Below are positions 1-19,037 of a DNA stretch of 20,957 nt, one piece after another. The translations under genes and the position numbers were made by a program. The notes beneath the pieces are model-generated. The model was given only the letters and a program-made list of their open reading frames with translations. It did not search any database and had not been told where the DNA came from. Position 1 is the first letter of the stretch. Each line of letters opens with the position of its first letter. The stretch is from a virus, in the IMG/VR virus record IMGVR_UViG_3300034073_002234, positions 1 to 20,957 of that record; one strand, given 5' to 3'.

Positions 1-2250
1 CGCGCCAATAACTGAGTTAGCCGGTGGGTTTAAGTTAGTTGTATTGATGTAAACAATGCCACTACTATCAATCCTCATTCGCTCCGTCGGGCTGCTCGCT
101 CCATCGGCGGTAGTGGAGAACACTAATCTGCCCGGCATGTCATTAGCGTCGGGGGTGCCGTCTATATTGACGCCAATTGATGCAGCAGCGACCATTTCTG
201 ATCCATCCGCCCCTTGCCATGAAATGGTTCCTAAGCTGTCATTATCAGCTACTACTGTATTTGAGCCTACAGAACCTCCCCTTGTTTTGCCCAAAACAAT
301 GCCACCACTTGCGGAATTGTTTGCGTTTCTAACCACACTAAGTGCAGCTCCCGCGAAGGTAGTTGCTTCAAGCTGAAGTTGCGGAGCGTCCGCAGTGTTG
401 TTGAAGTTTGCACGCGCACTAGACGTGCCAACTAAAAGCTGCCCACTTGATGTGATGCGGGCGCGTTCGGAGGATCCTATTTGGAATGCGAGATTAGGGC
501 TTGATCCACCTCCTTTCCCTGCATCCAAAACAACTACAGGCGCTGCTTCAGTGTTGTCAATGTTGATATCTAAAAACTTGGAGTTAGATCCGTTGTAACT
601 AAGATACCTTGCAATGTTAAATGTTCCAGTGGTGGTTCCGTCTTCAATTTGAAGCTTTCGACTAGGACTCGTAGTGCCAATCCCTACCAAACCTGCGTGT
701 GTAATACGCATCGCCTCGCCAAGCACATCGCTTGCTGAGGCAGACGAGTGCGTAAGAAATGCTAGGCCAAGCTGATCGTCATCGGTGCTTGTCTGAACAG
801 ATGCGATGGCGCCGCCAGGGCGTCCACTGTTAATCTTGCTAAGTGTTATCGCTGTGCCGTACTGCCCTGATCCAATAGTTCCCCCGGATTGCTGGATAAA
901 TAATCCTGGCGTAAAGTTGGCGCTATTTGCGTCAAATTGGCTCGTGGTTACAAAATGACTTGTTGCGATAGGGCTACTAGTCCCCAGACCTAAACGGCCA
1001 CTAGAGTCCAGGCGCATTCGTTCAGATCCTGCAGTGCGGAATTCTAAATAGTCGCTGCTGTGAACATATTGAATAGCACCTCTACTAAAGCCATCTGGAT
1101 CGCTAAAAGCGATTAACGCTGGACGATCATTTGGGGTATAAAAATTCAAGCCAGCGGTTCTGCCCGCTGCGGCTTCGATAATAACGCCATCGACACCAGC
1201 AAGTTCGGAAGATACACCAGAATCTCCTGTCTTAACGTGAAAGACTTCAAGGGGCGAGCTTGTGCCTAAGCCAACCCTTCCATTCGCATCAACAAACAAC
1301 CGCCCAGTGCCATTAGTCGAGATGGCTACCTGGTCTGCGCCGGGGGAGTAGATGCCGGTGTTAGTATCGCCGGTAAAAGTAAGACTTGGAGTAGCTGCGG
1401 CTCCAAGTGGATGAATTACAGGTAACGTTGATGTGACTCCTGTTGTGGTTGTAGTCAGCCGTTGTGTACCACCAGTGCTGATGGCCACCTGGTCTGCGCC
1501 GGGGGAGTAGATGCCGGTGTTGGTATCGCCGGTAAAAGTAAGACTTGGAGTAGCTGCGGCTCCAAGTGGATGAATTACAGGTAACGTTGATGTGACTCCT
1601 GTTGTGGTTGTAGTCAGCCGTTGTGTACCACCAGTGCTGATGGCCACCTGGTCTGCGCCGGGGGAGTAGATGCCGGTGTTGGTATCGCCGGTAAAAGTAA
1701 GACTTGGAGTAGCTGCGGCTCCAAGTGGATGAATTACAGGTAACGTTGATGTGACTTCTGTTGTGGTTGTAGTCAGCCGTTGTGTACCACCAGTGCTGAT
1801 GGCCACTTGATTTGTACCAGCTAAGTATATTCCTGTGTCTGGATCATTAGTAAAACGGAGCGCCGGAACCGCAGCACTACCATTATCAAAAGTAATGGAG
1901 CCGGTAAAAGCACCAGAGACTAGCAAATTGCCTGGGATTGTTACAGAACCCGAAGAATCGACACTAAGCCGGGAAGCTCCTCCTGTAACTAACGCAATCT
2001 GATCTGCTCCAGGACTAATAATACCTGTATTAGGATCATTAATAAATTTCAACGCGCAACTAGATAAACTACCCACATTCAGAGCGCTGTTAGACCCATC
2101 TTCACGCAGCAGTGGATAACCGGCTATCTGAACACCGTCATTAACAACGCAAGTTTTTTTTGTAGTGTCAACAACAACTTCTCCGTCAGCACCTATAAAT
2201 GTGGAGATATCAGCTGTAGTACCACGGCGAAACTGTACTTGTGTAGCCAT
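1..2250 (-). CDS. Tail fibre / receptor-binding protein (C-terminus beyond left edge)
   Basis: The frame is open for 750 codons from the ATG at 2250 to the left edge with no stop, so this is a 5'-complete, 3'-truncated gene. The N-terminus (MATQVQFRRGTTADISTF, then GADGEVVVDTTKKTCVVNDG) matches the short N-terminal module of phage fibres and major tropism determinants (Mtd_N-like: QxRRGTT...GE..VDT....VV.DG). The body consists of repeated beta-rich segments: TGIYSPGADQVAISTGG repeats, then several SSGRLGLGTSSP / GLVGIGTTSP / RMRIDSSG motifs typical of marine phage fibres. Fibres of this type often end in an S74-type intramolecular chaperone, which would lie outside the window. It would sit at the tail tip and bind the host surface. 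It is the last minus-strand gene, separated from its neighbours by a plus-strand gene. No clear ribosome binding site is seen. Confidence 0.88.
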   Translation of the reverse strand, partial: MATQVQFRRGTTADISTFIGADGEVVVDTTKKTCVVNDGVQIAGYPLLREDGSNSALNVGSLSSCALKFINDPNTGIISPGADQIALVTGGASRLSVDSSGSVTIPGNLLVSGAFTGSITFDNGSAAVPALRFTNDPDTGIYLAGTNQVAISTGGTQRLTTTTTEVTSTLPVIHPLGAAATPSLTFTGDTNTGIYSPGADQVAISTGGTQRLTTTTTGVTSTLPVIHPLGAAATPSLTFTGDTNTGIYSPGADQVAISTGGTQRLTTTTTGVTSTLPVIHPLGAAATPSLTFTGDTNTGIYSPGADQVAISTNGTGRLFVDANGRVGLGTSSPLEVFHVKTGDSGVSSELAGVDGVIIEAAAGRTAGLNFYTPNDRPALIAFSDPDGFSRGAIQYVHSSDYLEFRTAGSERMRLDSSGRLGLGTSSPIATSHFVTTSQFDANSANFTPGLFIQQSGGTIGSGQYGTAITLSKINSGRPGGAIASVQTSTDDDQLGLAFLTHSSASASDVLGEAMRITHAGLVGIGTTSPSRKLQIEDGTTTGTFNIARYLSYNGSNSKFLDINIDNTEAAPVVVLDAGKGGGSSPNLAFQIGSSERARITSSGQLLVGTSSARANFNNTADAPQLQLEATTFAGAALSVVRNANNSASGGIVLGKTRGGSVGSNTVVADNDSLGTISWQGADGSEMVAAASIGVNIDGTPDANDMPGRLVFSTTADGASSPTERMRIDSSGIVYINTTNLNPPANSVIGA
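1321..1797 (-). repeat. Three tandem 159-bp repeats inside the fibre gene
   Basis: Units start at 1321, 1480 and 1639, exactly 159 bp (53 codons) apart, and a diverged fourth unit starts at 1798. By eye the three units differ at only a few positions (for example ggctacc/ggccacc, gttagtatc/gttggtatc, gactcctg/gacttctg), so the duplication is recent or homogenised. Each encodes TGIYSPGADQVAISTGG, TQRLTTTTT and HPLGAAATPSLTFTGD segments, and the frame is preserved throughout. Confidence 0.95.
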
Positions 2251-2288
2251 AACTGCTTTAACTATTTACATATTCTACGCCTAAACCC

Positions 2289-2375
2289 TCACTGGATTTT
2301 TAGGCCGCGCTGCATATTTTCCCATCTATTAGGTACTTTACCCTGAAAACTAGGCTGTTCTATCAAATTTGCCAT
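2289..2375 (-). CDS. Possible 28-residue peptide upstream of the fibre gene
   Basis: An ATG at 2375 opens 28 codons (MANLIEQPSFQGKVPNRWEN...) ending in TGA, 38 nt before the fibre ATG. No convincing ribosome binding site precedes it and I recognise no family. It lies in the 260-nt stretch between the fibre start and the divergent plus-strand gene, which otherwise shows no clear gene. The amino-acid composition is protein-like (W, N, Q, R mix), but an ORF this short can occur by chance. Confidence 0.2.
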   Translation of the reverse strand: MANLIEQPSFQGKVPNRWENMQRGLKIQ

Positions 2376-2462
2376 CGTGCTGACCGGCCGAATCTCACTA
2401 TTCACACTTACTGCTTTAGGCTCCTATTACATGTACAAATTTCATCATCAAACAGAACAAGT

Positions 2463-2492
2463 TTGAATTGTAGTGCTTTTTTACCTTAAAAT
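2463..2492 (+). promoter_or_regulatory. Candidate sigma70-type promoter for the plus-strand gene
   Basis: TTGAAT (2463-2468) and TAAAAT (2487-2492) are separated by 18 bp and lie about 20 bp upstream of the GTG start at 2511. A promoter is expected here because no other plus-strand gene could supply a transcript. The match is moderate and such matches are frequent in AT-rich DNA. Confidence 0.35.
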
Positions 2493-2510
2493 AGAAGAAG
2501 AAGTTAAAAT

Positions 2511-2765
2511 GTGCCAGTGACTCCAGAACTGATTGTAGCTGTATTATCCGGAAGCGCAGGCGCTTTTGCTGGCCTGTCAAGAGCGTTGTCAAACTTCAAT
2601 AAAAAGATAGAAACACGTTTTGGCAATTTAGAACGAGAAATTGACAGTTTACAAGACCGTGTAATACAGAACTATGTACTTAAAGAAGATTTCCTGCGCG
2701 AGGTGCAAGCTGTACATTTAAAATTAGATCGTATACTGGATCACATCTTAAATCACGGTCGCTAA
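2511..2765 (+). CDS. Small hydrophobic/coiled-coil protein, only plus-strand gene
   Basis: 84 residues. The start is GTG at 2511, preceded by a purine-rich AGAAGAAGAAG stretch; the overlapping ATG at 2509 is in another frame and stops at once. The N-terminus (residues 6-26, ELIVAVLSGSAGAFAGLSRA) is a hydrophobic, small-residue-rich helix that could insert into a membrane. The rest (residues 27-84) is charged with heptad-like spacing (FNKKIETRFGNLEREIDSLQ), so probably coiled coil, ending in ILDHILNHGR. A single hydrophobic helix plus coiled coil fits a small holin-like, spanin-like or virion accessory protein, but no function can be assigned. The gene opposes all others. Its stop codon directly abuts the stop codon of the convergent gene at 2766 with no spacer and no visible terminator. 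Confidence 0.75.
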   Translation: MPVTPELIVAVLSGSAGAFAGLSRALSNFNKKIETRFGNLEREIDSLQDRVIQNYVLKEDFLREVQAVHLKLDRILDHILNHGR

Positions 2766-3191
2766 TTAAGTAGCAAGCCAAGAAGCCGTCGTTAAGTCAT
2801 ATATAAAAAGTCCAGGGATCAGCTTATCGTAATGAAGTTGGCCGTCAACAGGGTTAACCGGCTTGCCGTTACCAATAGAAGAAACAGCTTTTGGTGTTTG
2901 CCACGTACTCCCATCATACAGTTTTTGAATGTGTGTACTTGATGTATCTAGCCAAGATTCGCCTTTACTGAATAAGTTAAAGCCGGTAGCTGGAGTATTA
3001 GGCGCTGTAGCGCCAATAAAAGTAGGCCCAACTTTTATTAAATTTGTGGAGGGCGCCGCTATGTTATCCGCAAAATAAAGACCAGGATCAGAAGAATTGA
3101 AATTAATTGCTAGTTCTGCATTCCCTAGGCGAATCGGAAAAGGCCTGTCGAAGGCAATAGATGAACGTCTCGAAAGAATCTGAACAGCCAT
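2766..3191 (-). CDS. Short tail/adhesin-like virion protein
   Basis: 141 residues; ATG at 3191, two bases after the stop of the upstream 765-residue gene, so probably translationally coupled. The N-terminus MAVQILSRRSSIAFDRPFP is followed by IRLGNAELAINFNSSDPGLY, the 'GELAxNxxxxxPGLYF.D' pattern common at the start of phage tail-fibre and tail-collar proteins. The middle has KGESWLDTSSTHIQKLYDG and the end DGQLHYDKLIPGLFIYD, beta-rich and resembling fibre head-binding or short adhesin modules. It probably forms part of the tail tip or connects the fibre. The call rests on sequence style and position next to other tail genes; I recognise no enzymatic motif. Confidence 0.7.
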   Translation of the reverse strand: MAVQILSRRSSIAFDRPFPIRLGNAELAINFNSSDPGLYFADNIAAPSTNLIKVGPTFIGATAPNTPATGFNLFSKGESWLDTSSTHIQKLYDGSTWQTPKAVSSIGNGKPVNPVDGQLHYDKLIPGLFIYDLTTASWLAT

Positions 3192-3193
3192 CG

Positions 3194-5491
3194 TTAACTA
3201 TTGATGTAAAGGCTTGCATCGACTATTGTATCCAAGGCTGTTACAGGACTGTACGTTTCTGCCTCAATTTGGACAAGTGTATCTACATTCTCGAGTGGGA
3301 CGCCGTTGCGGTACTCACCACCGTCAACAAATCCAAACTCAAATTCACTAGTATATTCACTTAAGGGCTTATCAAGAAAACCAAATTTAGCTTCCTGAAT
3401 AATTTTAGGATCTAGATTAAATAACTTATTAACTAAACCCGTAAAACGGTTTGTACTATTTGCTACAATACCTATCCGACTTAATTTGCCTTCCCCATTG
3501 CGGCGAATATTGTCAGTTAATACCATTGTTGTTAGTGCTGGACCGAAGTTTGCAGCTTGCTCTGGGTTATTGCCTGCACCAGTAATTACTTGGCTTCCAG
3601 CCCAGCCTAGATTTTGCGAATCAAAAACATAACGCTCGGTCACTTCTTTCAAACGTTGACTCTCACGATCAAAATTTTTGTAGAATGTCTCTAATCCAGT
3701 TCCCACAGGTTGATCACTGGGTTCTAACAACCAAGTATTTACATATTCGTGTGGTTTTAAATTAGATACCGTGCAGTACCCTGATGTTGTATCAGCAAAG
3801 GGATAGACAATTGTAAAAGTGTCTTTAGTTGGGACACTTGTTATTGTGTACTCTCCCGCAATTGCGTTACCACTTGTAAAATCTAGCTGGATACGTCTGT
3901 TAGCCAAAAGGCCATGATTGGGTGCTGTAACTGTAATATTTGGTCCAGATTGCTCGTACCGGGCGTTAATTGAAATAGTGCCGCCACCTTCATCATGAAT
4001 TAGCGCCCACATCGAAGCGTAAATGTGTTTACACCACCGCATCTGATAATAAAGTAGATTCTGGAACGAAAACCGCTCAATATCCTCGTATTCAGGTAGT
4101 TCGTAAAAGTTGTTTATCGTTGTATATCCAATATCTTGGAAAACACCAGGTGAATCCCGAGTTTCGGTAAAAGTGCCGTCAGAATTTAAGATAAGACCTG
4201 GTTTTAAATTTGCTAATTGTGTTTGAGGAAACCTACGCTGCCTAAGTTGGCTATATAAGTTGTAATTATCTCGTTTACTGAAGTCTTCGCAAGAACATTG
4301 CCAACGTAATTCAGTTGTTAGATATCTGCCGACTTGAAATCCTCTGTGCGCAGGAACAACTGTTGCCGTAATTCCATTTGTAGTTTTTGCTGCGTAACTA
4401 TCGTCTCTTTGAAAAATTAATTCATTTGTAGTAGCGTCCGATCCGGTGACCGTATAACCTACATAATCTAAATAATTAAATCCACGGAGAAGACGGTTAA
4501 CTGTAGCGTTCCCTAAAGTTGAGCCACTCGTGATTGTAGTAATTTCAAATACAGTTGCACTGGTAACAGTCACTTCGTAGCGTCCAGAGGACACAAGTCC
4601 TGTTCCAATGTCTAAATAAATTGTATTTCCAGTGGAGAGACCATGATCTAAAGTGCATGTGACGGTTACAGTTGACCCTGTGCGGCTATAAGTAGCAGTG
4701 ATGCCCGGATCGCGTTCAATTACACGATCAGTCATCCGTTCACCTGGTAATAATGCCGTCTCGGTCGGTAAGAACCTTAACGCAACTCGAATAAAGCGCC
4801 AGCGCGAGTCTGTAAATGCTGTTGAAATGGCGTAAGCAACGTTTCCGCTTGTTGTTAACGGTGTTCCAGCAGTAACTGTAAAGGTATTTTGTGTTTTTTC
4901 GGTAATTGTGAGCGTATTATTTACAGCAGTACCCGATGAAAATGCTAAATAAACGCTATCCCCAGGAAATAAACCGTGGTCAGCCTTGGTAACAGTAATT
5001 ACAGTTCCACTTTGAGTGTATACTGCTTCTACTGAAGCACCTACATAACGTACACCAAGAATTGGAAGCCCATAATCATAGAAAGTGAACGAATTGGTAT
5101 CTCGCATACCAACAAGTTGCTCTCCAATGTCTTGATTTGTTGAGGGATACGTGAATAAACGTGCCGGAACAAAAACTCCTGGATATTGCTGAAAAGAAAA
5201 ATAAAGCCGGTAGTCACCTCTAACAGGCCGCTCGATATCACTTGAGCCTAAAGCGCTTTGTGTGATTGAATAAAGTTCATAGCCACGACGCCATCGAGCC
5301 CACAGTGAATCGTGGTTGTAAAACCGCACTTCACTTTCAATTTCCGGAGAAAGTGATGGGTCAAACGGATTCTTAATTTCCGCTCTCTTATCTGTTCCGT
5401 TAAATTTTGTGAGACTAGAAAATTTCTTATCGAGCTTCCCACTAAAAGGGCTGCCCTTTGATCTAGAGAATCCGCCTACACCAAAGGGCAT
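3194..5491 (-). CDS. Large virion/tail protein with three beta-domain repeats and a split SWIM-like CxC...CxH site
   Basis: 765 residues, start ATG at 5491. The N-terminus (MPFGVGGFSRSKGSPFSGKL) is followed by a unique region, then three copies of a roughly 65-residue beta-rich module at residues 154-222, 264-333 and 508-575. The shared pattern is GHGL..G..VYL.F.SG......YT.T....TFTV, which resembles modules sometimes annotated E1-FCCH-like in phage structural proteins. Residues 397-404 read WQCSCEDF and 486-491 read WCKHIY. These are the two halves (CxC and CxH) of a SWIM zinc-binding signature, separated by 85 residues. The C-terminal 180 residues are unique (FYKNFDRESQRLKEVTERYV...). Size and position between lysins and fibre fit a tail-tube or baseplate-like adhesin component. 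The function is inferred, not recognised from a named family. Confidence 0.8.
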   Translation of the reverse strand: MPFGVGGFSRSKGSPFSGKLDKKFSSLTKFNGTDKRAEIKNPFDPSLSPEIESEVRFYNHDSLWARWRRGYELYSITQSALGSSDIERPVRGDYRLYFSFQQYPGVFVPARLFTYPSTNQDIGEQLVGMRDTNSFTFYDYGLPILGVRYVGASVEAVYTQSGTVITVTKADHGLFPGDSVYLAFSSGTAVNNTLTITEKTQNTFTVTAGTPLTTSGNVAYAISTAFTDSRWRFIRVALRFLPTETALLPGERMTDRVIERDPGITATYSRTGSTVTVTCTLDHGLSTGNTIYLDIGTGLVSSGRYEVTVTSATVFEITTITSGSTLGNATVNRLLRGFNYLDYVGYTVTGSDATTNELIFQRDDSYAAKTTNGITATVVPAHRGFQVGRYLTTELRWQCSCEDFSKRDNYNLYSQLRQRRFPQTQLANLKPGLILNSDGTFTETRDSPGVFQDIGYTTINNFYELPEYEDIERFSFQNLLYYQMRWCKHIYASMWALIHDEGGGTISINARYEQSGPNITVTAPNHGLLANRRIQLDFTSGNAIAGEYTITSVPTKDTFTIVYPFADTTSGYCTVSNLKPHEYVNTWLLEPSDQPVGTGLETFYKNFDRESQRLKEVTERYVFDSQNLGWAGSQVITGAGNNPEQAANFGPALTTMVLTDNIRRNGEGKLSRIGIVANSTNRFTGLVNKLFNLDPKIIQEAKFGFLDKPLSEYTSEFEFGFVDGGEYRNGVPLENVDTLVQIEAETYSPVTALDTIVDASLYINS

Positions 5492-5500
5492 TTTTAACGA

Positions 5501-6289
5501 TCAATAGTAACCGCCTTGCGCAGTGACATAAAATCCGTTAGTGAGTGCAGTCGTCCCACTATAAGCAGCATATAGTGCCTGTCCACGCTTCAGCATCATG
5601 CCACGAATTTTAGGTGCAGTTGCGCTATTAGCTGTGAAAAAATTTGAACCAGCCTGTACGGTTGGATGGTTAATCAAAGGCAGAACATCATATTCAGTAA
5701 GACTGTAATACTGATATTCGTAAGTAGCTGGAATGCTAACGGTAAACAGGGGGAAAAATTGATTGGTGTTTGTGACTGACCCAGTTTCAACCAAGTAGAT
5801 ACAAAAATCTAAAGGCAGTCTGCACTCAACATTACCTGTAATTGGTCCAGAGACGCTTGGGATGGTGCCAGTGAACGTGGTTGGTGTTACTGCAGTGACA
5901 TTGACGGCCTGGTCAATTGGAGTGGTTCCGCTGCTGTACGAAGTAAAGTTCAGATAAACCTGCTGTCCAACCTGAACATTATGGCCACCACTAATAGTGA
6001 CAACAACATTGGTGCTGTTAGCTGAGTAAGTGCCCGTAACCGCAGAAGTTGCGTCAATAAACTCGGTATTACGTTTTGAATACTGGAACCAAATCTCATC
6101 AATATACGCACCACTAATCGACGTATCTGTCTGTGCAGAGTCCACGTCAAAAATTTTGGTCGCATTTCCAACCGCAGTCGGTACTAAGCTAGTTGAAAAC
6201 GCTTGGCCTGAAGCCACAGTAACTAAGCTAGAAGTAGTCGCCGGACGATCAACGAGAAGCGGCTGCTTGTTTGAGCTAGACGATGACAA
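5501..6289 (-). CDS. Virion structural protein with one beta-domain insert
   Basis: 262 residues from a TTG start at 6289; an in-frame TAG lies three codons upstream, so no longer start exists, and GGGAG about 10 nt upstream can serve as ribosome binding site. The N-terminus reads MSSSSSNKQPLLVDRP. Residues about 84-155 (VTGTYSANSTNVVVTISGGH ... VYLNFTSY) are the same beta module that occurs three times in the next gene, here inserted between RNTEFIDATSA and RLPLDFCIYLVETG. The C-terminal part (GMMLKRGQALYAAYSG) is unique. It ends 9 bp before the 765-residue gene, so the two are probably cotranscribed. Probably a tail or head-surface component. Confidence 0.72.
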   Translation of the reverse strand: MSSSSSNKQPLLVDRPATTSSLVTVASGQAFSTSLVPTAVGNATKIFDVDSAQTDTSISGAYIDEIWFQYSKRNTEFIDATSAVTGTYSANSTNVVVTISGGHNVQVGQQVYLNFTSYSSGTTPIDQAVNVTAVTPTTFTGTIPSVSGPITGNVECRLPLDFCIYLVETGSVTNTNQFFPLFTVSIPATYEYQYYSLTEYDVLPLINHPTVQAGSNFFTANSATAPKIRGMMLKRGQALYAAYSGTTALTNGFYVTAQGGYY

Positions 6290-6351
6290 TTGACGCTACT
6301 CTCCCTGTACGATGCGTTTTGTTGGGTAAATTCTAATGCAGACAACCTTAA

Positions 6352-6528
6352 TCAGGATGCCTTCTTTTTCTCCATCCGCATCCGCGCTTTTTTCACAGCC
6401 TCTTTGCGACGCTCTTTGTCAGTAGGTTCCTTATCAGATTTTTTATCAGATTCCTTTTCAGACTCTTGGCCGCCTTTTTTCTTAAAATGGGCCAGCAGCT
6501 CGGGAGGCATCTTACCTTTAGCAGGCAT
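6352..6528 (-). CDS. 58-residue Lys-rich small protein
   Basis: ATG at 6528, TGA at 6352-6354. The product starts MPAKGKMPPELLAHFKKKGG, continues with an acidic/basic repeat (SEKESDKKSDKEPTDKER) and ends in KKARMRMEKKKAS. A 'KGKMPPELLxxFKKK' opening followed by charged low complexity is a recurring small-protein type in aquatic phages; I do not know its function. The start is supported by a second Met at residue 7 and by the complete MPPELL motif. It lies between two structural genes on the same strand and just below a candidate terminator. The highly basic C-terminus could bind nucleic acid, but this is speculation. Confidence 0.7.
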   Translation of the reverse strand: MPAKGKMPPELLAHFKKKGGQESEKESDKKSDKEPTDKERRKEAVKKARMRMEKKKAS

Positions 6529-6542
6529 CGTATTGAGTACTG

Positions 6543-6571
6543 AAAAAACGTATAGGTATATTCTAATACGT
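6543..6571 (-). terminator. Candidate weak intrinsic terminator
   Basis: On the minus strand ACGTAT, a 12-nt loop and ATACGT are followed immediately by a T run (plus-strand A6 at 6543-6548). It lies in the 54-nt gap after the stop of the 96-residue gene at 6583. The stem is only 6 bp and AT-rich, so termination would be partial at best. Confidence 0.35.
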
Positions 6572-6582
6572 GCCTAAGCTAT

Positions 6583-6873
6583 CTAATACAAGCTTTCTTG
6601 GAGATCATCTACCTCACCACCAGCTGCGTAGGGATCTTCAAGAACTGGTGCCTCAGCAAGATTGTTTAAATCCACATTAAAGGCTTCGCCAGCGAGGCGG
6701 GAACGACCGGAATCTCTACGTGGTAATCGACTACCTATTGCGTAGTAACCACCTTCGGTAGCCAGCATCGACTGAAAATCCTCAGCATTAGTCCGGAGCG
6801 GAAACTCATATGGCTCGCGTTTAGTGGTGAGACCAAGTGTATAGCCCATTTTTTCTCCAGCGCGTCTAGCCAT
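6583..6873 (-). CDS. Hypothetical protein, 96 residues
   Basis: ATG at 6873, overlapping the end of the upstream gene by 8 nt. The N-terminus is basic (MARRAGEKMGYTLGLTTKR), the middle has YYAIGSRLPRRDSGRSRLAG, and the C-terminus is acidic (EDPYAAGGEVDDLQESLY). No recognisable domain, signal peptide or membrane helix. Tight packing with minus-strand neighbours supports it as a real gene. The split charge distribution and small size suit a virion accessory or assembly factor, but no function is claimed. Confidence 0.65.
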   Translation of the reverse strand: MARRAGEKMGYTLGLTTKREPYEFPLRTNAEDFQSMLATEGGYYAIGSRLPRRDSGRSRLAGEAFNVDLNNLAEAPVLEDPYAAGGEVDDLQESLY

Positions 6874-7081
6874 TGTTCTTTCTCCTAGAAGCTAATTCGA
6901 CGGCACGGCGTGCTTTGCTTGCACGTTCTGTATTCGGTACAAACTGACGACCTGTTCGAGAAGCCCGTTGCTTCTTTTCATCTGTACGCTTACGTTCCTC
7001 GGGACTCAACCTCGCCCACGCTTCTTTTGGCAAGTAGCGTTCGGTGCTCTTCTGTCCGGGCTCGATTGCTTTGTCGTTCAT
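6866..7081 (-). CDS. Small charged protein with LSPEERKRTDEKK motif, 71 residues
   Basis: The ATG at 7081 (MNDKAIEPGQKSTERYLPKE) was chosen because it lies 4 nt after the stop of the upstream gene. A longer version could start at 7138 (MQAPAAAMLG...) but would overlap that gene by 53 nt. The segment WARLSPEERKRTDEKKQRAS and then TGRQFVPNTERASKA resembles a small, very charged helical protein type common in aquatic phages (LSPxERxxTDxKK...GxQFVxNT). The C-terminus ARRAVELASRRKNNG is basic. The function is unknown; DNA or RNA contact is possible from charge alone. It overlaps the following gene by 8 nt, suggesting translational coupling. Confidence 0.65.
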   Translation of the reverse strand: MNDKAIEPGQKSTERYLPKEAWARLSPEERKRTDEKKQRASRTGRQFVPNTERASKARRAVELASRRKNNG

Positions 7082-7781: not shown

Positions 7782-8059
7782 TAGAAACCTTGCGAAGGCT
7801 GTTTATTTAAAATGACAGGTGGAATATTGTCTACCCTGCTACGCGCCACCTCACGCATGTAAGCAGGATTGTTCAACTGGAACCTAGGATCATCTTCTCC
7901 ATTATACGCAACAACAAAATCACACTTGCTGTGCTGCTCCTTACGTTTGTTGTTGAAAGGGTCACTAAAACCTGAAGTCGTCAAGCTGTAATCCCTGTAC
8001 ATATTCTCGTACGTAACAGGGAAAGAGGGCGAATAACCGGGAACAGCAGCGAAACGCAT
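7781..8059 (-). CDS. Hypothetical protein, 92 residues
   Basis: ATG at 8059, overlapping the peptidase stop by one base (TAATG), so probably coupled to it. It starts MRFAAVPGYSPSFPVTYENM, contains FNNKRKEQHSKCDFVVAYNG and ends RVDNIPPVILNKQPSQGF. Aromatic- and Pro-rich, with no signal peptide, membrane helix or recognised motif. The position directly after two virion lysins suggests a tail component. The function is unknown. Confidence 0.65.
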   Translation of the reverse strand: MRFAAVPGYSPSFPVTYENMYRDYSLTTSGFSDPFNNKRKEQHSKCDFVVAYNGEDDPRFQLNNPAYMREVARSRVDNIPPVILNKQPSQGF

Positions 8060-8739
8060 TACGCTAAATAATTCGGAGTCTGGTTAAATGCACCCATTAA
8101 AAGCTGCAATGGATTAATTGACGATCTAATTTGCGGTGTCTCTCCAGACATTAGCTGTTTTGCATACGCGGCCAGAAAATCATCACCACCTTGTTTTTGA
8201 GTTTCTCCAATGCCAGGGAGAATGATATAAGTGTCTCCCTGTTTTGGTTGTTGTTGTGTGGGAGGTTGCACAGCTTGTGGCTGCATTGCAGCCTGTTCTC
8301 CTTGCTTACCCCCGACAGTATGAAGAAGACGAATCTCATATGGAGTGCCCTGAGCATCAGTTGTTTTGATGCTGCCATAACCACGACCAGGAGTGAATGT
8401 TCCTGGACCTTCCCAGGCTAAAGGTACTCCTGCGCCAATACCATAATCCTGGCCCAAGTGAAACGTCGATGCACCCTTGGTGGGTGCGACACGTTTACCA
8501 TAGCCAGAAGTGATTGGATACGCAGGATTCCATTGTTCGCCTTGTTGTTGCCACAAAGCTTCACGGTCTTTATCTACTTTTAGGCGAGTTAAAAGCGAGC
8601 GAATTGTACCTGGGTCAATATATTGTCCGTCTTTCAGAACCCGCACATCCAGGTGCGCTCCTGTAGTCGGATAAATATCTTCCGCAGTGGTGGCAATACG
8701 GCCGACGTCCAAGTAGTCTTGTGCTGCTGTTTTCGCCAT
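8059..8739 (-). CDS. M23-like peptidase, motifs in circularly permuted order, virion-associated
   Basis: 226 residues, ATG at 8739. Residues 14-43 (RIATTAEDIYPTTGAHLDVR, then DGQYIDP) match the C-terminal block of M23 peptidases (IG..G.TG...GPHLHFEV....VDP). Residues 73-118 (AYPITSGYGKRVAP, STFHLGQDYGIGAGVPLAWE) match the N-terminal block (ITS.FG.R..P...FH.G.D...P.GTP..A), with H94 and D98 as expected zinc ligands and H140 in RLLHT as the later Y.HL-type His. The blocks are therefore swapped relative to the usual order. The usual HLH reads H29-L-D31, so one ligand is Asp. A Gln/Pro linker (150-167) leads to a tail (168-226) shared with the neighbouring transglycosylase. It likely cleaves peptidoglycan cross-bridges during DNA entry; activity is unproven given the altered ligand. 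Confidence 0.75.
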   Translation of the reverse strand: MAKTAAQDYLDVGRIATTAEDIYPTTGAHLDVRVLKDGQYIDPGTIRSLLTRLKVDKDREALWQQQGEQWNPAYPITSGYGKRVAPTKGASTFHLGQDYGIGAGVPLAWEGPGTFTPGRGYGSIKTTDAQGTPYEIRLLHTVGGKQGEQAAMQPQAVQPPTQQQPKQGDTYIILPGIGETQKQGGDDFLAAYAKQLMSGETPQIRSSINPLQLLMGAFNQTPNYLA

Positions 8740-8748
8740 AGTACGTAG

Positions 8749-9345
8749 TTAATATTGCGGTACTTGGTCTAAACCAAAAGCTTTACTTAGTAGAGCAAGA
8801 GAATTCAGACCTGCATCTATTTTTGGTGTATCTGGATTAAAAATAGTCTTTAAAATGAATCGATCTAAATTCTCTTTGGGGTCGACCTGTGGCTGCATGC
8901 CTCCAAACAAAATAAAAGTGCGGCCACCTGGTGCAGCTGCTACATCTTGTGGTTGTTGCTGTGGTTGCTGCGGCGTAGCTTGTGTAGCCTGCGCGGCTTG
9001 CTGTGCTTGGGGTAAAAATTCTTTGTACTTGCCGCTTTTATAAACTGACCAAGCGCCAAGACCTTGACTACCTAAAATTTGTTTAGCAGCTTTGACGTTA
9101 GTTGTTGGGTCAAATAACTGGCTCTCTTTTTGAAGGCCAAACTGCTTCATCCGTGCAGGTCCAAGTCCACCGTGCATGTTGACTTGAAACAATCCATAAG
9201 ATTTGTCAAGTCCTTCGGGATTGAATGCCTGCGTGCGTCCTCCTGATTCCGCCATTGCAATGGCAGTCATCGTCGGTATCTTGTCCTGCGGGAATCCTTG
9301 TTGTTTTAACAGGTCCGCAATTTGCTGTGGATTTAGCTGCGACAT
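8749..9345 (-). CDS. Virion-associated lytic transglycosylase (SLT-like)
   Basis: 198 residues from the ATG at 9345 (MSQLNPQQIADLLKQQGFPQ). The same frame continues to an ATG at 9504, but that start would overlap the upstream gene by 137 nt. Motifs (numbered from 9345): AIAMAESGG with catalytic Glu33, SYGLFQVNM (49-57), DPTTNVKAAKQIL (about 79-91) and GLGAWSVYKSG, the usual order in SLT/lysozyme-like transglycosylases, which cut the MurNAc-GlcNAc bond. A Gln/Ala/Pro-rich linker (TQATPQQPQQQPQ) follows. The C-terminal 55 residues (GRTFILFGG...TPKIDAGLNSLALLSKAF) match the tail of the next protein. No adjacent holin is seen; location among virion genes points to a tail lysin that opens the wall during infection. 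No strong ribosome binding site precedes either start. Confidence 0.8.
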   Translation of the reverse strand: MSQLNPQQIADLLKQQGFPQDKIPTMTAIAMAESGGRTQAFNPEGLDKSYGLFQVNMHGGLGPARMKQFGLQKESQLFDPTTNVKAAKQILGSQGLGAWSVYKSGKYKEFLPQAQQAAQATQATPQQPQQQPQDVAAAPGGRTFILFGGMQPQVDPKENLDRFILKTIFNPDTPKIDAGLNSLALLSKAFGLDQVPQY

Positions 9346-9367
9346 GACAGAACTAGACTGCTTGGCG

Positions 9368-9847
9368 TTAACGGAAATCGTTTGAGAGCATAAGGCGAGT
9401 GCCAACAGCGACGTCGGCAGGGCCTGGAAGGGCTTGAATAAATTCAGCACCTTCGCGATTAAACCGATACCGGGCTTGCTCGGGGTTTCGGTAATTCGGA
9501 ACATACAAATGTAGGGCTAATCGATCCGTCTCGTATAGGTAAATTGCCGTCCAGGTTTTCAGCGTGTCTCTAAAATCAGAGGTTGCAATCGTACGATCGA
9601 CGTCACCGGCTATGCTTTCGATACGACTCCTGGGAACAGTATTGTTGTTCACACTTCCAGTCATGTCAGTGCGCTTTTCAGCTTCGTCGCACCGACTGAC
9701 TTGTTCGACAATTTTCGAATACCAGAAAGAATCTGGGATGTTGTTGACAGCTTCTTCAAGACGCGCTAAGTCACCTGCCGGAATAGACGTGGTGTTATAA
9801 CCAAGGTGCCAGCGAACTTTAGACTTGAGGAAGTTATCGAGTTGCAT
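9368..9847 (-). CDS. Hypothetical structural protein (neck/adaptor position)
   Basis: 159 residues, ATG at 9847. The N-terminal half looks helical (MQLDNFLKSKVRWHLGYNTT, LARLEEAVNNIPDSFWYSKI, VEQVSRCDEAEKRTD). The centre has DVDRTIATSDFRDTLKTWTA. The C-terminal part is IYLYETDRLALHLYVPNYRN. Size and place after the capsid genes and before the tail lysins fit a head-completion or connector protein, but I recognise no family. Its 5' region carries a long RNA-type hairpin (9864-9899) ending 16 nt before the ATG. It stops 22 nt before the preferred start of the transglycosylase. Confidence 0.68.
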   Translation of the reverse strand: MQLDNFLKSKVRWHLGYNTTSIPAGDLARLEEAVNNIPDSFWYSKIVEQVSRCDEAEKRTDMTGSVNNNTVPRSRIESIAGDVDRTIATSDFRDTLKTWTAIYLYETDRLALHLYVPNYRNPEQARYRFNREGAEFIQALPGPADVAVGTRLMLSNDFR

Positions 9848-16367: not shown

Positions 16368-19037
16368 TTAAAACTCCAGCTCTAATTTGCCACGTGTCAT
16401 CAGACCGTTGCAAAGCCATACCAATGCGTCGACTGTGTCATCATGGGAGCTAACACCAAAATTAATGATTTCATCTGTTAACGGCCCGAACCGTCGATAC
16501 TTATTGAAAATTAACTTACGCTGCTCGAACAAGCCCATAATGCCACGGAAGCGTGCAACCTTATCGCCCCGAAAACCTTTGACCGCGTGCCAGTGCATAT
16601 TATAAAGTCCGTGGTCACCAAGACAGATTCGTTTAAAATCAGCTTCTAGAGAGGCTTGGTAGGCAACAGCCTCTGACCAGATGTCGATGTTGCTTCCAGT
16701 GGGAAAATATCGCCCGCCATCCTTATGGATGACGCCCCACTCCTCCATCATCTCCATAAGGGCTTCCAACTTTTCTAAGTTTCCCATAATGCGGATTCGT
16801 TTACAGTCGATGATGTGAATTTTATCTTTGACGCGACCACCCATCACGAACGCAGTGTAATCATTCTGTTCTCGAACACCAGCAGAAAGATCGACACCAA
16901 CCCCCATGGCATCAAATTGTGTTGCAATTGTGCCCTTCACAATTAAGTCAGGTGAGAGTGACAGCTCACTAGTTTGTACAATTTGGTTCTGGTACTGGAA
17001 ACTAAAAGCAATTGGTGCTTGTCGTCGTCGATCTTGCAAATACTCTAAAGACCACATGTCGGGCCAATAGGAGATTTCTTCACCTTCCTGATCAACGACA
17101 ATCGCTGACTGCACCAGTTGGACCCAGTCGTTAGCCGGAATAAAGGTGGTTCCGTGCATATCATCATGCCGAAAACGCGTACCTAGGCAGATAGCGCGAC
17201 CACCTTCAAACATAGTGGGAACAATAACTGAATTCCAGTTATCTTCCATTGCTGTTCGAATATCTCTATTTTTAATTTCGTCAGCAGATTTACAAATGTC
17301 GTCAATAATACAGAGGTGTGAACGCTTGGATGTCACAGCTCCTTTCAAACCCGCGCAACAAACAGTAAATTCTTCTTCACCGGTTGATTTAATCCCAGCA
17401 AATTTCCAATCAATGCTCCAATACTCGTTAGAGTTAATCCCCTTGGCAATTTTAACCATCGGAAAAATTTCGTTATAAGTTTTACTCTCTTCGATAATTC
17501 TTTTGATCGCCGCACTTTTTGGACGTGCAACGTCAATTGTGTACGAAATATAAAGAATCTTCAACGGCATTTTATGCAACGCGTGCACGCCAATTGTCCA
17601 GGCTGTGAATAAACCTAGGACGCTCGACTTTGCTGAGTTCTTGCTGACAATATAGTCTTTTGTCAGGAATGTATGCTTCTCATGTGCGACGGTTATACAA
17701 CGTACTTTTTCTGGTAACGCAGGTTTGATATCAACAATAGACCTACAAGGTAGATATTTTGTGCAGGGTTTGTACAACAAAGCTTTCCGTTGAAGGTAAA
17801 AAGGCTTTATCGATGGTGGAAGTTTAATGCCTACTTTCCAGGAAGGGTTTGTAGTTCGTATTTTCTCACCTGTTGGCGAATTGTATTGATTGTATTGCGG
17901 TGCATTAATTGTTGCAACTCCGCCTAATGATTGGACTAGTTCCACTACGTCGAGGATTAATTGGTAGGAAGCGCTGCAAAATGAAATTTTTCCACCTCCG
18001 GAACGATTGGATCCTACGGTTCCATCTGTATCTAGTAATCCTTGTAAAAGGGAAATACGATCCTCGACGCAAGCAAACTTGTACTCTGCTGGAATGAACT
18101 TCTCTATTGATCCTTTACCTTGTAACCCGAGGGTGCGCAAAGCGTCTAAAACTTTATTTGGCTTATTCTTTTCTCTACTTGTTTTGACAATCTTGTACCC
18201 ATATTTAGAACCAAAAACACTAACTAGTTCGTGGTCAGGAGGGAGAGAATTGCCGCAGCGGTCAACAATATCTTTATCAGCTGACGTAAGTAGAACACTT
18301 GATTTCTTTGTCAGTCCACCATCCCCAATAAGTACCCCCAGCAAGTATGGATCTGCAAGTAAGTCAGATTTAGGGTACTGGACAGGCTCAGTAATTGGGA
18401 TTTGATAACGCGCACACCCGCGTGAATCCAACCATGGGGCACTACCTTCTTCACAGGCCTCTGTAATTCTTTTTCCTCCAGTCCTCCAATTACCTTCCAG
18501 TCCTGTAGTTTTTTGTGTTCTAATATCATTCAACGTCATCAAGCGCCAAGTGCCTTTTTCATCTGTACCTACTCTCCTGACTTTCCAAAGATGCTGATCA
18601 TCACAAGCGACAGACGAACCATCAGAAAAAATCACGTTCCAAGTAGGACTTTCTGCGTAGTCGTGGATATCTATAATTTCAGTCGAGCTACCGTCTTCTG
18701 CAAAAACAAGGTCTCCTAAAGCGAGTTCTCCGATAGGGCGCCACCCGTGCGGCGTGGCTACCGGCATGGAAACCGCCAAAGGCCCCCTAGGGGCCAGAAT
18801 ATCGATGTTTGGTCCAGCAATGCCTTTTAGGCAGACCGAGTCTTCATCAGTGCATAGATGTTTGTGCCACTCGAGGTGATGTGCTGCTGGTGGCTTGTCT
18901 CCGACTACATCACAAAAATAAGCAAAATCCGTACGTGCACGCTCAATGTCGACGCTACTAGTTTGTTTAACTACTCGCTTCTGAGCTGCTGCTCGCGCCG
19001 TACGTCTATAAACTGAATAAAGACTTGTTCCGGCCAC
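16368..19037 (-). CDS. terL: Terminase large subunit containing an intein
   Basis: 889 residues before splicing and 507 after. The start is GTG at 19037; an in-frame TGA lies 9 nt upstream, so no earlier start is possible. The ATPase: Walker A LAPRG/SAKSS is split between Gly85 and Ser468 by the intein; Walker B is SHLCIIDD (D579-D580), followed by an ATPase coupling segment AICLGTRFRHDD (615-626). The nuclease: D716 in GVGVDLSAG, E789 in WSEAVAYQ, and D866/D867/D870 in SSHDDTVDAL, the RNase H-like acidic set. It translocates and cuts DNA at the portal. Without splicing the P-loop is broken, so packaging depends on intein removal. It lies 41 nt after the candidate small subunit and upstream of the portal gene, in normal packaging order. 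Confidence 0.95.
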   Translation of the reverse strand: MAGTSLYSVYRRTARAAAQKRVVKQTSSVDIERARTDFAYFCDVVGDKPPAAHHLEWHKHLCTDEDSVCLKGIAGPNIDILAPRGPLAVSMPVATPHGWRPIGELALGDLVFAEDGSSTEIIDIHDYAESPTWNVIFSDGSSVACDDQHLWKVRRVGTDEKGTWRLMTLNDIRTQKTTGLEGNWRTGGKRITEACEEGSAPWLDSRGCARYQIPITEPVQYPKSDLLADPYLLGVLIGDGGLTKKSSVLLTSADKDIVDRCGNSLPPDHELVSVFGSKYGYKIVKTSREKNKPNKVLDALRTLGLQGKGSIEKFIPAEYKFACVEDRISLLQGLLDTDGTVGSNRSGGGKISFCSASYQLILDVVELVQSLGGVATINAPQYNQYNSPTGEKIRTTNPSWKVGIKLPPSIKPFYLQRKALLYKPCTKYLPCRSIVDIKPALPEKVRCITVAHEKHTFLTKDYIVSKNSAKSSVLGLFTAWTIGVHALHKMPLKILYISYTIDVARPKSAAIKRIIEESKTYNEIFPMVKIAKGINSNEYWSIDWKFAGIKSTGEEEFTVCCAGLKGAVTSKRSHLCIIDDICKSADEIKNRDIRTAMEDNWNSVIVPTMFEGGRAICLGTRFRHDDMHGTTFIPANDWVQLVQSAIVVDQEGEEISYWPDMWSLEYLQDRRRQAPIAFSFQYQNQIVQTSELSLSPDLIVKGTIATQFDAMGVGVDLSAGVREQNDYTAFVMGGRVKDKIHIIDCKRIRIMGNLEKLEALMEMMEEWGVIHKDGGRYFPTGSNIDIWSEAVAYQASLEADFKRICLGDHGLYNMHWHAVKGFRGDKVARFRGIMGLFEQRKLIFNKYRRFGPLTDEIINFGVSSHDDTVDALVWLCNGLMTRGKLELEF
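17637..18782 (-). mobile_element. Intein with LAGLIDADG homing endonuclease, class 3-type splicing residues
   Basis: 382 residues (Pro86 to Asn467 of the precursor), inserted in the Walker A loop. Block A is PLAVSMPVATPHGWRPIGEL, so residue 1 is Pro instead of Cys/Ser. Block B is SVACDDQHLWKV, with His149 and Trp151 two residues later (B:12). Block F is VRCITVAHEKHTFL with Cys447 at F:4. Block G is YIVSKN/S, with Ser465 at G:5, Lys466 in place of the usual His, terminal Asn467 and Ser as the +1 residue. The Trp plus block-F Cys are the class 3 signature (WCT), here WCS. The endonuclease motifs are LLGVLIGDGG (D239) and LLQGLLDTDG (D338), both with their acidic residues, so homing may be active. 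Confidence 0.93.

Follow-up and report, generated by a model that had tools for sequence, protein, structure and literature searches.

The gene at 8059..8739 on the minus strand of the viral DNA analyzed here (the window, positions 1 to 20,957 of IMG/VR record IMGVR_UViG_3300034073_002234) raises the question of how to read a protein in which the closing block of an M23 peptidase precedes the opening one. Our results suggest that the gene product is probably a zinc endopeptidase of the virion with a circularly permuted M23-type domain. The 226-aa product, which has full-length relatives in viral contigs, is predicted to consist of a permuted M23-type domain and a C-terminal tail, whose coding segments are all on the minus strand. 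Its N-terminal block, residues 12 to 43 (8611..8706; VGRIATTAEDIYPTTGAHLDVRVLKDGQYIDP), corresponds to the end of canonical M23 domains, an assignment supported by a profile match and by shuffles, and contains TTGAHLDVRV...IDP; the canonical end motif is presumably IGxxGxTGxSTGPHLHFEV. The C-terminal block, residues 73 to 141 (8317..8523; AYPITSGYGKRVAPTKGASTFHLGQDY...YEIRLLHT), corresponds by profile match to the start of canonical M23, as far as the YxHL strand, and contains ITSGYGKR...H94LGQD98...LLH140. Between them, residues 44 to 72 (8524..8610), defined by subtraction, would form a new connection between the former C- and N-termini, and residues 146 to 226 (8062..8304) comprise a Gln-rich linker and a C-terminal tail common to the protein with an SLT (lysozyme-like) domain encoded upstream. 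A preliminary description made from the DNA letters had placed a reading frame at 8059-8739 and proposed its permuted motif order, and both are confirmed; the order and coordinates that it gave for the blocks were right, but its second block (residues 73 to 118) was too short, since the match extends to H140.

The window protein contains only three histidines, at residues 29, 94, and 140, each at a canonical M23 active-site His position. No HxH motif can therefore follow the second block, and a second half hidden downstream was ruled out, the protein being without His after residue 140. The H(x)nD zinc motif is present as H94-LGQ-D98, and H...D occurs in 91/91 distinct domains. At the HxH motif, the protein reads H29-L-D31, with Asp in place of the second His: the codon at 8653..8655 (minus strand) encodes H29, the putative catalytic His equivalent to the first His of HxH, and that at 8647..8649 (minus strand) encodes D31, the putative third zinc ligand, a position held by His in canonical M23. 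A further catalytic His is found as LLH140, inside the stretch aligned to canonical columns 9 to 79. In LytM, the catalytic His260 lies about 30 residues before HxH, according to the part of a review that treats it (PMC9662197); owing to the swap, H140 of the window protein comes after H29-x-D31 in the chain. Likewise, the canonical chain order, H(x)nD before HxH, is reversed in the window protein and in 203 open reading frames (ORFs). H29, H94, D98, and H140 are invariant across an alignment of 48 permuted sequences. In all, five active-site positions are kept: H94, D98, H29, H140, and D31, the last replacing the usual His.

Relatives were collected in several rounds. A first search of viral contigs gave 32 loci from 38 candidate stretches; a second gave 499 among 577 stretches and a third at least 512 among 599, 80 being taken from each of these two. 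Bacterial genome contigs gave 371 among 431 stretches, and the 80 taken comprise nine permuted loci (L119 to L127) and a canonical remainder (L128 to L198). Among named phages, tblastn matches extending over 80% or more of the L127 query were found in 31 of 50,697 records (24 Acinetobacter, 6 Moraxella, and the Synechococcus phage S-EIV1), a count that includes one phage entered twice; the DNA was read for four of them (L035, L036, L037, and L041). At an E value of 1e-12, matches were present in 3/388 genomes from the class of Leptolyngbya, Leptolyngbya included (L280, L283, and L284), and in 3/390 genomes from the order of Acinetobacter, the central genome included (L279, L285, and L286); all six loci are permuted. 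One of them, L284, represents a second small-protein type, of 208 aa. Two further candidates for the permuted form, in Microbacterium phage Floof (L038) and Synechococcus phage Sf-CH3 (L039), both proved to have the canonical order. The permuted order thus occurs in phages or prophages of two phyla, Cyanobacteriota and Pseudomonadota, and the window virus is itself related to a cyanobacterial phage. Recurrence of the swap in phages with very dissimilar hosts suggests an old rearrangement that has been kept. No homolog without the N-terminal block was found among the permuted relatives read.

Whether the two blocks are genuinely homologous to M23 was addressed by cutting a profile of 48 permuted relatives into halves and comparing them against a profile built from 32 canonical M23 domains (129 columns). 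The N-terminal half alone (residues 8 to 44; columns 5 to 37) matched canonical columns 95 to 123 (probability, 96.5; E, 8.9e-10), and the C-terminal half alone (residues 73 to 145; columns 2 to 70) matched canonical columns 9 to 79 (probability, 99.3; E, 7.8e-21), the latter similarity being somewhat favored because the canonical set was fetched mostly by C-block motifs. This bias largely spares the N-block tests, except that the canonical rows were required to contain G.HxH. The whole permuted domain gave both matches in swapped order (probabilities, 99.1 and 94.4), and about 15 canonical columns lying between the halves (columns 80 to 94) had no counterpart in the profile matches. The N-block had a profile-profile score of 48.0, whereas none of 200 column-shuffled versions exceeded 26.2. 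Against a hidden Markov model (HMM) of canonical M23, the first 60 residues of the window protein scored 10.1 bits at model positions 95 to 115, a score reached by 0/1,000 shuffles (best, 5.0), and when the N-block was shuffled within doubled sequences, 0/1,000 reached the real score for each of six sequences, and the outcome was again 0/1,000 with the N-block by itself. These sequence comparisons indicate that each half is homologous to the corresponding part of canonical M23, and that the order is reversed.

The comparison was also made in the opposite direction. Twelve permuted sequences were used to build an HMM, which matched the canonical loci L128 to L198 in two pieces, with the late part of the model first, in 70/71 loci; counted by ORF, 71 matched in swapped order and one (L198) by the C segment only. 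Unbroken matches were obtained for 203 ORFs, namely, the 9 in L119 to L127 and 194 in phage or viral loci, the latter counting some contigs more than once and including the sequences from which the HMM was built; three phage or viral ORFs matched by the C segment only (L038, L039, and L201). When the permuted sequences were doubled head to tail, the canonical HMM (120 positions), which in native rows reached positions 36 to 71, reached 105 to 117 and spanned the junction. Doubling raised the best-domain score in 48/48 rows, by 0.2 to 28.3 bits, with a gain below 1 bit in two (L071 and L109). With the Pfam M23 model, the best stretch lengthened from 2-51 to 2-86 of 96 positions in L126 and from 2-53 to 2-88 in L127, and L112 went from no match to 3-96; the length of the stretch was used here rather than bits, because whole-protein bits of doubled rows count the second copy. 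Among solved structures, the 48-row profile matched 3SLU, 6MUK, ShyA, and others; along the 3SLU and 6MUK chains, query residues 67 to 128 came first and query residues 5 to 39 second, and a tape-measure profile behaved alike. Taken by itself, the second piece fell short of significance in these structures (6 to 9 bits); in 3SLU it had 6.6 bits and an independent E of 51, and the tape-measure profile gave 8.8 bits.

The Pfam result for the window protein itself counts against the permuted-M23 reading: Pfam M23 found no match in it, whether native or doubled, the doubled protein matching six weak, unrelated families with M23 not among them, and the curated cutoff of PF01551 (28.7 bits) was not reached. 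The relative L037, scored over the whole fragment, has 31.2 bits to Pfam M23, in two stretches of which the better lies in the C-block. A single-sequence Pfam scan thus overlooks the window protein; the permuted order helps to explain the miss, and ordinary annotation tends to overlook the swap. Together with the shortness of the N-block (about 35 residues), the Pfam miss could be taken to mean that the N-block is a chance motif resemblance without M23 homology, a reading that we find scarcely credible, as it is contradicted by the shuffle controls, the profile tests, and the tape-measure relatives.

Structure prediction gave confident models of the whole domain. AlphaFold models, built from alignments of the collected relatives, had a pLDDT of 90 to 98 in ten-residue blocks over residues 11 to 150 of the window protein, followed by a loose tail (overall, 81.3; pTM, 0.65), and of 90.3 for the L126 domain (pTM, 0.86). 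The N-block forms two strands in both models (residues 9 to 15 and 30 to 36 in the window protein; 2 to 7 and 17 to 22 in L126). With VIA-align, L126 residues 37 to 128 aligned to residues 252 to 338 of lysostaphin (4QPB; Z, 5.9; root mean square deviation [RMSD], 2.8; 85 residues), residues 34 to 128 aligned to LytM residues 185 to 269 (Z, 5.2), and residues 33 to 128 aligned to EnpA (Z, 5.2). The L126 N-block was left unaligned, as expected of a permutation under a chain-order aligner (the order handling of VIA-align is unstated), although this could equally count against a close spatial match to M23. For the window model, residues 48 to 150 gave 2GU1 as the best M23 (Z, 4.1; RMSD, 3.3; 84 residues), and LecB lectins scored level with the M23s (Z of about 4), which counts against the reading. 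These Z scores are modest and are no proof of an M23 fold. Foldseek returned no match at E values of 0.001 or below in PDB or BFVD (best PDB E values, 0.15 and 0.43), and none of the 50 matches displayed for the window model was an M23 protein. One BFVD entry drew attention, A0A0R6PJE2, with a probability of 1.00, an E value of 0.098, and 36% identity across 80 columns.

In our preferred reading, the chain would fold into the ordinary M23 sheet, its termini having moved to the region past the YxHL strand. The same sequence pattern would arise if half-domains were swapped between the subunits of an oligomer, so that the permuted order reflected a domain-swapped assembly, and tape-measure and virion proteins do sit in multicopy assemblies; that arrangement seems quite improbable to us, given the high confidence of the monomer models across the domain and the identical order of the 226-aa and tape-measure types in very different settings. 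The two-way profile tests, the confident models, and the recurrence in two phyla support a circular permutation whose new connection spans approximately residues 44 to 72, as had been proposed at the outset. A natural permutant that keeps its active-site positions would show that the M23 fold tolerates new ends.

The third-ligand position deserves separate consideration. Among 91 distinct continuous domains from the collected loci, it was occupied by Asp or His only, reading HLD in 89/91 and HLH in 2/91 (L013 and L015), and L286 likewise combines the permuted order with HLH. In the canonical order, a narrow pattern applied to the collected loci found His in 75/75 matches. Locus L282 holds a 331-aa ORF for a canonical-order M23-like protein with H-Y-D instead of HxH. 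The idea that Asp occurs only in permuted forms was therefore ruled out, by L282 on the one side and by L013, L015, and L286 on the other; given HLH in L286 and HYD in L282, Asp prevails among the permuted domains, although some of them do without it and it also occurs outside their group. The earlier suggestion of an Asp ligand thus stands as a conserved substitution and falls as a hallmark. In the mechanism that we propose, H94, D98, and D31 would hold the metal, while H29 and H140 would activate water. To our knowledge, a His-Asp-Asp metal site is unusual, and we counted this against the proposal. Degenerate LytM factors are without catalysis, and the replacement of the third-ligand His by Asp in nearly all domains could mean that the permuted fold has likewise lost activity and now binds peptidoglycan or builds the virion; we regard such a loss as unlikely, because the remaining four active-site residues do not vary across 48 rows and the third-ligand position varies only between Asp and His. 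The conserved Asp offers a direct test of metal choice within the family.

The setting of the gene bears on when such an enzyme would act. It lies in a virion block with the order large terminase, portal-like structural protein, major head protein, small proteins, SLT protein, M23 protein, and tail genes. The neighboring ORF (8749..9504, minus strand) encodes an SLT/lysozyme-like glycan-cutting protein (Pfam SLT_3, E of 1.2e-13; SLT, E of 6.5e-8), a probable partner that carries the same tail: about 75 residues are shared at 36% identity (E, 2.9e-4), and an HMM of the tail matches the window SLT protein with an E value of 8.2e-7. As listed, the SLT ORF overlaps an upstream 159-aa ORF by 137 bases (9368-9504), so the SLT gene probably starts at a site downstream of the listed one. 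In many related contigs, the tail HMM also identifies an ORF that bears the tail and lies upstream of the M23 gene. Within the S-EIV1 locus the tail HMM found no match, which counts against our explanation. The shared tail makes the pair look like two peptidoglycan-cutting heads, one for glycan and one for peptide, on a common anchor. We envisage that the permuted enzyme cuts the peptide cross-links of host peptidoglycan as infection starts, that the SLT-type protein would cut glycan alongside it, and that both would be fixed at the same virion site through the tail.

Many phage M23 proteins are lysins, and a permuted, active enzyme might instead serve host lysis at the end of infection. Two of three weak PHROGs matches are indeed named endolysin (phrog_3578, E of 0.03; phrog_3572, E of 0.14), but the remaining one names a tape measure (E, 0.032), the gene sits in the virion block between the major head protein and the tail genes, its tail is common to the SLT protein, and related domains are built into tape measures. 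We therefore think a role as endolysin fairly unlikely, the virion neighborhood, the shared tail, and the tape-measure relatives together making entry likelier than lysis. A natural M23 permutant would flag a set of putative phage entry enzymes that are now labeled as tail protein or hypothetical.

The tape-measure relatives carry the permuted domain, with HLD and LLH, inside long proteins of the Acinetobacter phages Ab105-2phi and Aclw_9 and of Moraxella Mcat20; proteins with the embedded domain range from 810 aa (Ab105-2phi) to about 1,460 aa. Such a location fits a job during entry. In Ab105-2phi (L036, 928-4983), the annotation divides the tape measure into three ORFs, of which the first, of 810 aa, stops soon past the permuted domain. 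The tape-measure match in Moraxella Mcat18, Mcat21, and Mcat22 falls into two pieces under two annotated tail proteins, which indicates a gene split within the matched stretch in those records. By eye, the long ORF with a permuted domain in Leptolyngbya PCC 7375 (L127, ORF 2-7021) also reads as a tape measure. Two more stretches of the same ORF were picked out by eye: a lipase-like one (GHSAGG) within the initial 300 residues displayed and, beyond the permuted M23 domain, one resembling lysozyme.

Compared with the M23B/PF01551 peptidases (lysostaphin, LytM, ShyA, NMB0315, and EnpA), the permuted form shares HxxxD, the His that ends the opening half, TG.H.x, and FGxR..P, with sequence matches to 3SLU, 6MUK, ShyA, and lysostaphin and a weak one to LytM (E, 0.07); it differs in its swapped halves, its new connection, and the Asp that mostly replaces the second His of HxH. 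The closest named protein considered, the "peptidase M23 family" product of S-EIV1 (AHV82231.1), has the permuted order and 49.6% identity over residues 10 to 145, and its record carries the M23 family label with the order unmentioned. In the Acinetobacter and Moraxella tape measures, by contrast, the domain is embedded in a long protein rather than forming a separate small one as in the window. Circularly permuted NlpC/P60 proteins (YaeF-like and LRAT-like) offer a parallel, in that a peptidoglycan-enzyme fold has its catalytic residues swapped; as portrayed in the parts of the two sources used here, however, they are cysteine enzymes of an unrelated fold whose permuted forms are linked to lipids (PMC6403190, PMC12994826). 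The MT3 domain of the TM4 tape measure, or VldE, is likewise an M15/M23-related zinc peptidase and is named after a tape-measure motif, but its H301, followed by H373 and H375, reads as the ordinary order in the portion of that report concerned (PMC11667670); a word search of the text found no "permut." A 2022 review, in the sections covering the family, treats M23 as one fold distinguished by the motifs H(x)nD and HxH (PMC9662197), and a word search of it found no word starting with "permut." A literature search found no permuted M23 domain among the matches listed, as judged by titles and the openings of abstracts. The domain is M23-homologous and, we infer, M23-like in its working, but it departs from canonical M23 in two features, the order and HxH.

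The cyanophage and tape-measure types have in common, by eye, the connection pattern L..R(L/F)..GK.L....(I/V)(T/S)S. A tree of rotated sequences (50 permuted and 32 canonical; 123 columns) placed one change of state between the forms (SH-aLRT, 91), although its resolution is poor, with few columns, long branches meeting, and a narrow canonical sample. Taken together, the shared pattern and the one-change tree allow a single origin but do not show it. The permutation may have followed the usual route, a tandem duplication and then the loss of the outer halves. We suggest, tentatively and as a possibility on the doubtful side, that one ancient permutation gave rise to a distinct M23 subfamily of phages, in which the moved termini allow the domain to be threaded through or embedded in the entry machinery, as part of a tape measure or as a tail-tagged small protein, and in which the mostly His-Asp-Asp site gives a different metal or latency until ejection.

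Elsewhere in the virion block, the large terminase ORF (16368-19037, minus strand) has a LAGLIDADG_3 match at residues 329 to 387, and its best terminase match begins at residue 468; from its sequence, this ORF seems to hold an intein.
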